A stretch of DNA of 64,000 nt from an uncultured Pseudomonadales bacterium. Its GTDB lineage: Bacteria > Pseudomonadota > Gammaproteobacteria > Pseudomonadales > Pseudohongiellaceae. Below the pieces are notes generated by a model. That model was not told where the DNA came from and did no database searches. It saw nothing but the letters and a program-made list of their open reading frames with translations. Where the stretch lies: contig CALSTS010000002.1 in the NCBI GenBank assembly GCA_943789335.1, positions 1 through 64,000 on the forward strand, written 5' to 3'. Below, piece after piece: positions 62,976 to 63,260 of this stretch. The first letter of the stretch is position 1; each line of letters starts with the position of its first letter. The position numbers and the translations under genes were made by a program.

Positions 62976-63183
62976 GGGTCTGTAGCTCAGTTGGTTAGAG
63001 CATACCCCCCGCTTAAGGGTTTAGAGGAGGGTGAGGTCGGTTATCGACCTGGTTAGAAATATTCCAGACGTTAAAGTTTGGGTCTGTAGCTCAGTTGGTT
63101 AGAGCATACCCCCCGCTTAAGGGTTTAGAGGAGGGTGAGGTCGGTTATCGACCTGGTTAGAAATATTCCAGACGTTAAAGTTT
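62976..63183 (+). repeat. Two identical 104-bp degenerate tRNA-Ile copies in tandem
   Basis: Units are 62976-63079 and 63080-63183, identical base for base. Each opens with the first 26 bases of the tRNA-Ile that follows (GGGTCTGTAGCTCAG and the D arm). The anticodon arm is changed (ACCCCCCGCTTAAGGGT, no GAT), a 13-base segment is added (TTTAGAGGAGGG region), and the T arm is replaced by the hairpin AGGTCG-GTTAT-CGACCT. Each ends CCAGACGTTAAAGTTT without CCA. They cannot work as tRNA-Ile. Confidence 0.85.
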
Positions 63184-63260
63184 GGGTCTGTAGCTCAGTT
63201 GGTTAGAGCGCACCCCTGATAAGGGTGAGGTCGGTGGTTCAAATCCACCCAGACCCACCA
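63184..63260 (+). tRNA. tRNA-Ile (anticodon GAT)
   Basis: The 77-base tRNA has acceptor GGGTCTG/CAGACCC, encoded CCA, anticodon stem CACCC/GGGTG with loop CTGATAA (GAT at 63218-63220) and a normal T arm. Its sequence is of the type normally found inside 16S-23S spacers. Here no rRNA flanks it: tyrS is upstream and alkB downstream. Confidence 0.97.

Follow-up and report, generated by a model that had tools for sequence, protein, structure and literature searches.

Close to one end of the DNA examined here, a 64,000-nucleotide stretch from an uncultured Pseudomonadales bacterium that we refer to as the window, an intact tRNA-Ile gene is preceded by damaged copies of itself. An initial annotation, made from the letters alone, drew attention to these copies, and they raise the question of how degenerate tRNA units came to occupy the leader of a working tRNA gene, and whether they are debris or serve the cell as an RNA. 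The features of the window that bear on this question are collected in Table 1.

Table 1. Positions of the tRNA genes, their degenerate copies, and the tRNA-Ile promoter in the window.
Feature	Position	Strand	Evidence
tRNA-fMet, parent of the 3'-type copy	31683..31759	+	
3'-type degenerate tRNA-fMet copy	31817..31925	+	
Promoter of the tRNA-Ile transcription unit, TTGTCT-16-TATAAT then GCGCG	62897..62924	+	-35/-10 pair, 10/12
Leader repeat unit 1, degenerate tRNA-Ile copy	62976..63079	+	sequence comparison, TRF
Leader repeat unit 2, identical to unit 1	63080..63183	+	sequence comparison, TRF
Functional tRNA-Ile(GAT), CCA encoded	63184..63260	+	ARAGORN, Rfam

Structure of the tRNA-Ile Leader

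As the initial annotation had claimed, two perfect 104-bp units derived from tRNA-Ile lie directly ahead of the real gene. TRF reports a period of 104 with 2.4 copies across 62969-63216, and in the register that begins at GGGTCTG the two units are identical at 104/104 positions; the sole mismatch in the TRF register (A62972 versus G63076) is located before the first unit. Chance is ruled out for repeats of such length and identity. The third member of the array is tRNA-Ile(GAT) itself, with a score of 76.6 bits, and a test of both units for a functional tRNA (7-nt anticodon loop, T arm, Rfam threshold) gave no ARAGORN or Rfam call. A search for the 104-bp unit elsewhere in the assembled genome, which had been proposed at the outset, returned none.

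Compared with tRNA-Ile, the units retain the acceptor 5' strand and an intact D arm, while the 7-nt anticodon loop CTGATAA is swapped for an enlarged one of 21 nt ending in TTTAGAGGA. The T arm is replaced by a new 6-bp hairpin, AGGTCG/CGACCT. One strand contains GGTCG, which forms the variable loop in the intact tRNA, and its pairing partner CGACC is new. Both the retained D arm and this hairpin had been recognized in the initial annotation. CCAGAC stands near the 3' end of each unit, and the linker is GTTAAAGTTT. The minimum-energy fold of one of the window's units is cloverleaf-like, with GTCTG pairing to CAGAC near the end.

The promoter lies 50 bp upstream of the array, and an CTTGTCTG...TATAAT element precedes tRNA-Ile also in four sister species (G001-G004) and in G012, G021, and G028. 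The array is thus situated, as had been suggested, between a promoter of the stable-RNA type and the tRNA, and appears positioned for transcription as a tRNA leader, so that the damaged copies are probably transcribed together with their tRNA.

The gene itself is an orphan outside the rRNA operon (window 62830-63320; L007, L008, L012, L015). It is preceded by tyrS in the window's genus and by a different gene, MsrQ-like by eye, in other genera, with the promoter conserved. The g3 genomes have tRNA-Ile(GAT) in the 16S-23S spacer, with no tRNA-Ala found in its vicinity; a 16S gene was not found in the window's genome. Elsewhere in the window, a Ribosomal S15 leader (RF00114) at 49200-49312 scores just at gathering level.

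Copies at Other tRNA Genes

In a survey of the genome by searches and retrieved stretches, each tRNA retrieved was compared with its own flanks, and leader arrays of 3, 4, and 4 copies were found at tRNA-Arg(TCG), tRNA-Thr(TGT), and tRNA-Arg(ACG), respectively, at a spacing of 76-93 bp and with the intact gene last in every array. The remaining tRNA leaders examined in the window's genome held no copies.

Another type of copy lies downstream and shares the 3' end of the tRNA. Copies of this 3' type were found behind the genes for tRNA-fMet, Phe, Thr, and Ile; those described here from the window's genome belong to tRNA-fMet and tRNA-Phe. The degenerate tRNA-fMet copy has a 16-nt anticodon loop and an exact 3' end, GCCCCCGCTACCA, including CCA, and the trailer/terminator is duplicated with it. 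An extra short tRNA-fMet remnant is present near 31942. Fragments of tRNA-Phe recur behind its gene at distances of 56 and 143 bp (L037, G000:C1): AAAATCCTCGTGT and the final 25 nt, CCA included. The initial annotation had suggested a recurring tRNA-remnant process in this lineage. Such a process exists and, counting the four leaders here, their counterparts in relatives, and the downstream copies, is much wider than could be seen from the window.

Distribution among Relatives

The relatives examined were four sister species (G001-G004) and six species of a second genus (G005, G012, G021, G026, G031, G062). Leader copies occur at the same four tRNA genes (Ile, Thr-TGT, Arg-TCG, Arg-ACG) in the sister species and the second genus, with none to four copies per locus, numbers that are possibly wrong because the assemblies often break at the arrays. 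Individual species lack arrays at several of the four loci; G062, one of the species searched, has no such array, and in G001 the Ile units have been lost with the final bases of the linker remaining. Ile and Thr copies are also present in G028, which belongs to a third genus of the family. The leader copies are nearly identical within a species and diverged between species, which bears out the earlier proposal that the degenerate form arose before it was duplicated.

The pattern TAGCTCAG-N(4-30)-TAAAGAGNAG was searched in 391 genomes of the order and matched only the window's own genome, G028, and one site in G306 that was judged to be a chance match; this match aside, the pattern is restricted to the family within this sample. 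On this distribution, the arrays are old in the lineage, specific to it, and rapidly turning over. REP-like palindromes or other repetitive elements are found within degenerate copies at L268 (G026), L260 and L263 (G012, G021), and L269 (G033), often at the D loop, as if the tRNA copies had served as landing sites.

A Shared Purine-Rich Insertion

Copies of different tRNAs have a purine-rich insertion in common, TAAAGAGNAG, with variable adjoining bases. It was missed by the initial annotation and is the best clue to function, although it is degenerate in the window's own copies, which read TTTAGAGGAG and hold two ARN triplets only. Its place differs: Ile copies have it in the anticodon loop, Thr copies and those of both Arg genes have it on the D loop's 3' side, and Thr copies of G005 and G002 have a shortened form in the T loop. 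In 25 Thr and Arg leader copies picked by homology of their 5' halves with the motif disregarded, TAAAGAG is exact in 18, and the bases preceding it in the D loop vary from species to species. Between genera, the pairwise identity of Thr copies is 0.99 in the motif versus 0.65 in the D loop and 0.66 in the tail, a contrast that these figures overstate because presence of the motif decided which Thr copies were compared. Genome-wide, no enrichment of the bare motif is seen (29 matches versus 32 for the reversed control).

Read as AAG AGN AGN, the insertion forms a series of A-R-N triplets in which the free position of the motif falls on the N of a triplet, and A-R-N triplets are bound by the distal face of Hfq (PMC4104026, PMC9890229). 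Three or four ARN triplets are present in 22 of the 25 Thr and Arg copies, compared with one or two at the corresponding place in the parent tRNAs. Among the seven copies without an exact TAAAGAG, four hold four consecutive triplets, for example AGC AAC AGT AAC and AAG AAC AGC AGC, and one holds three. Changes relative to the locus consensus number 5/37, 5/37, and 15/37 at the first, second, and third ARN positions, those at the second being all purine to purine; the difference between first and third positions (Fisher p = 0.017) comes from a hand-made alignment and is uncorrected for shared ancestry. All eight genomes searched encode hfq. As a signature of Hfq, the ARN register is no more than suggestive, given that purine-rich strings fit ARN easily and the hypothesis was formed on the same sequences.

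The units were also folded alone. Ile units give a cloverleaf-like minimum-energy structure in two of four genomes (G000 and G004) and fold otherwise in G003 and G028, and in the folded Thr units the motif occupies the loop of a hairpin; no fold common to all of these Ile and Thr units was found, and the folding z-scores are unremarkable. In the tRNA-Phe leader of G003 (L267), TAAAGAGCAGCAAA with four ARN triplets directly follows the Phe promoter, and no tRNA copy is recognizable there. A second pair of TAAAGAGAAG sequences in the genome, 104 bp apart (C6:374267, 374371), proved unrelated to any tRNA or repeat.

Origin and Possible Role of the Leader Units

The presence of the same leader arrays at other tRNA genes and in relatives means that the window's units are no isolated accident. 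The anatomy of the units, their position behind the promoter, their repeated occurrence at four tRNA genes and in two or three genera, and the recurrence of the motif are established at the level of sequence. Tentatively, and with somewhat less than even confidence, we assign the Ile units to a family of tRNA-linked leader repeats that is specific to this lineage and whose leader RNA would most likely bind a protein, Hfq being the best candidate.

An origin by tandem duplication, decay, and homogenization is well supported by the sequence comparisons. A tRNA gene with its 5' flank would have been duplicated in tandem under its own promoter, after which the upstream copy would have lost tRNA function, with loops replaced and the 3' half lost or rebuilt, and gained the conserved purine-rich insertion readable as A-R-N triplets; the modified copy would then have been re-amplified and homogenized through unequal recombination. 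The array is presumably transcribed from the tRNA promoter as a 5' leader of the pre-tRNA, and RNase P, cutting at the start of the intact tRNA, would free a leader of about 100-400 nt. This RNA, with one to four purine-rich sites, would most likely be a protein-binding RNA, and its best candidate partner would be Hfq, as in multi-site decoys such as CrcZ. A functional leader RNA freed by RNase P and binding Hfq is offered as a hypothesis only. The more far-reaching proposal of a new class of regulatory RNA, in which modified 5' tRNA copies in pre-tRNA leaders would be released by RNase P and their ARN loops would titrate Hfq or another RNA-binding protein, coupling post-transcriptional control to the rate of stable-RNA synthesis via repeat copy number, is in our view unlikely.

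The main competitor of a functional leader is neutral debris, in which tRNA genes are occasionally duplicated in tandem and the surplus copies decay, while unequal crossing-over and gene conversion or template switching between arrays homogenize them and spread TAAAGAG among tRNA copies. We give this account a chance not far short of even and regard the functional and neutral readings as about equally likely. It accommodates copies that are nearly identical within a genome and diverged between species, the loss of arrays at many loci, the degenerate motif in the window's Ile units, and the REP-like and other repeats inserted into copies, as expected of unconstrained DNA; an Arg-like AACTGGCT inside Thr copy 4 of G000 further suggests exchange between arrays. 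It fits less well with a motif that is preserved across genera at four loci amid changing adjacent bases, that occupies differing tRNA positions (D loop, anticodon loop, T loop), and whose ARN pattern tends to be retained in diverged copies.

Other accounts fare worse. Integrative elements that target tRNA genes are well known to leave tRNA fragments (PMC9897764), and 45-nt tRNA-Arg 3' halves about 1.5 to 8 kb from the gene in two sister species (L266 and L280; G002:C3 and G004:C15) resemble ordinary attachment repeats and are probably just that, that is, attachment sites of integrated elements. As an account of the leader arrays, however, attachment-site scars are improbable: the same inserted motif occurs in different tRNAs, and an attachment-site origin of the leader copies themselves is rejected on the arrangement of 5' halves in tandem at 76-104 bp spacing with no element or integrase between units, the Ile units abutting at 104 bp. 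The motif also invites a reading as an antisense boxA that pairs with pre-rRNA, TAAAGAGNA being the reverse complement of the antitermination element boxA (TGCTCTTTA), a nine-base resemblance to the textbook boxA. We judge this very improbable, and it is largely refuted by the eighth motif base, which is free to vary, and by the boxA-like elements of G032, a relative of another genus, which read GTTCTTTA before 16S and TGTTCTTTA in the spacer rather than CTCTTTA; the pairing, moreover, stops short of the flanks. An artefact of short-read metagenome assembly might be suspected, as several contigs of relatives end at such arrays and a run of N interrupts the Arg-ACG leader of G002, but it is scarcely credible, since the same genes have diverged tandem copies in other species whose genomes were assembled independently.

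Comparison with Known Systems

Knowledge of tRNA-linked repeats (TLRs) in E. coli goes back to 1978, and their function is little understood. They include the tyrT (rtT) repeats and rrA/rrB/rrF, and they lie downstream of a gene with 18-19 bp identical to its 3' end; three TLRs give rise to sRNAs that bind Hfq and CsrA in vitro, and in vitro binding of Hfq is described for the rRNA-linked rrA/rrB/rrF (PMC8144298). Like the TLRs, which number one to five per locus, the leader repeats described here are short, present in 1-4 copies between promoter and tRNA, tied to individual stable-RNA genes within their transcription unit, and share one end with the neighboring gene. Unlike them, the Ile, Thr, and Arg units precede their gene, match it at its 5' end, and have an insertion in common. 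Only the 3'-type copies look TLR-like, and the tRNA-fMet copy, with its identical 3' end, comes close to the E. coli description.

Regulatory RNAs have been described in related settings. The 3'ETS-leuZ of E. coli is a pre-tRNA spacer that acts as a sponge for RyhB and RybB (PMC8166272, PMC8144298), and the arrays likewise lie in a pre-tRNA spacer, where their role is hypothetical; 3'ETS-leuZ, however, is a 3' spacer without tRNA-like repeats that works by base pairing, whereas the arrays are 5' leaders made of tRNA copies. CrcZ of Pseudomonas sequesters Hfq (PMC9890229) and is a dedicated sRNA controlled by CbrA/B and RpoN, whereas the leaders have short ARN runs as putative Hfq sites. The fragments left by integrative elements (PMC9897764) are also partial tRNA genes near intact ones, but they are not tandem 5' halves lacking an element between them. 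No description of leader-type tRNA copies was found in the open-access papers searched.

Some bacterial tRNA leaders, then, hold fast-evolving tRNA-like arrays that standard annotation leaves uncalled. The Ile, Thr, and Arg leader units appear to be the 5' mirror image of the E. coli TLRs and would at most work like them. A second lineage with 5'- and 3'-type repeats at many tRNA genes and a recurring motif opens a comparative route to the reason for such repeats, and to whether tRNA-linked repeats are sRNAs or debris.
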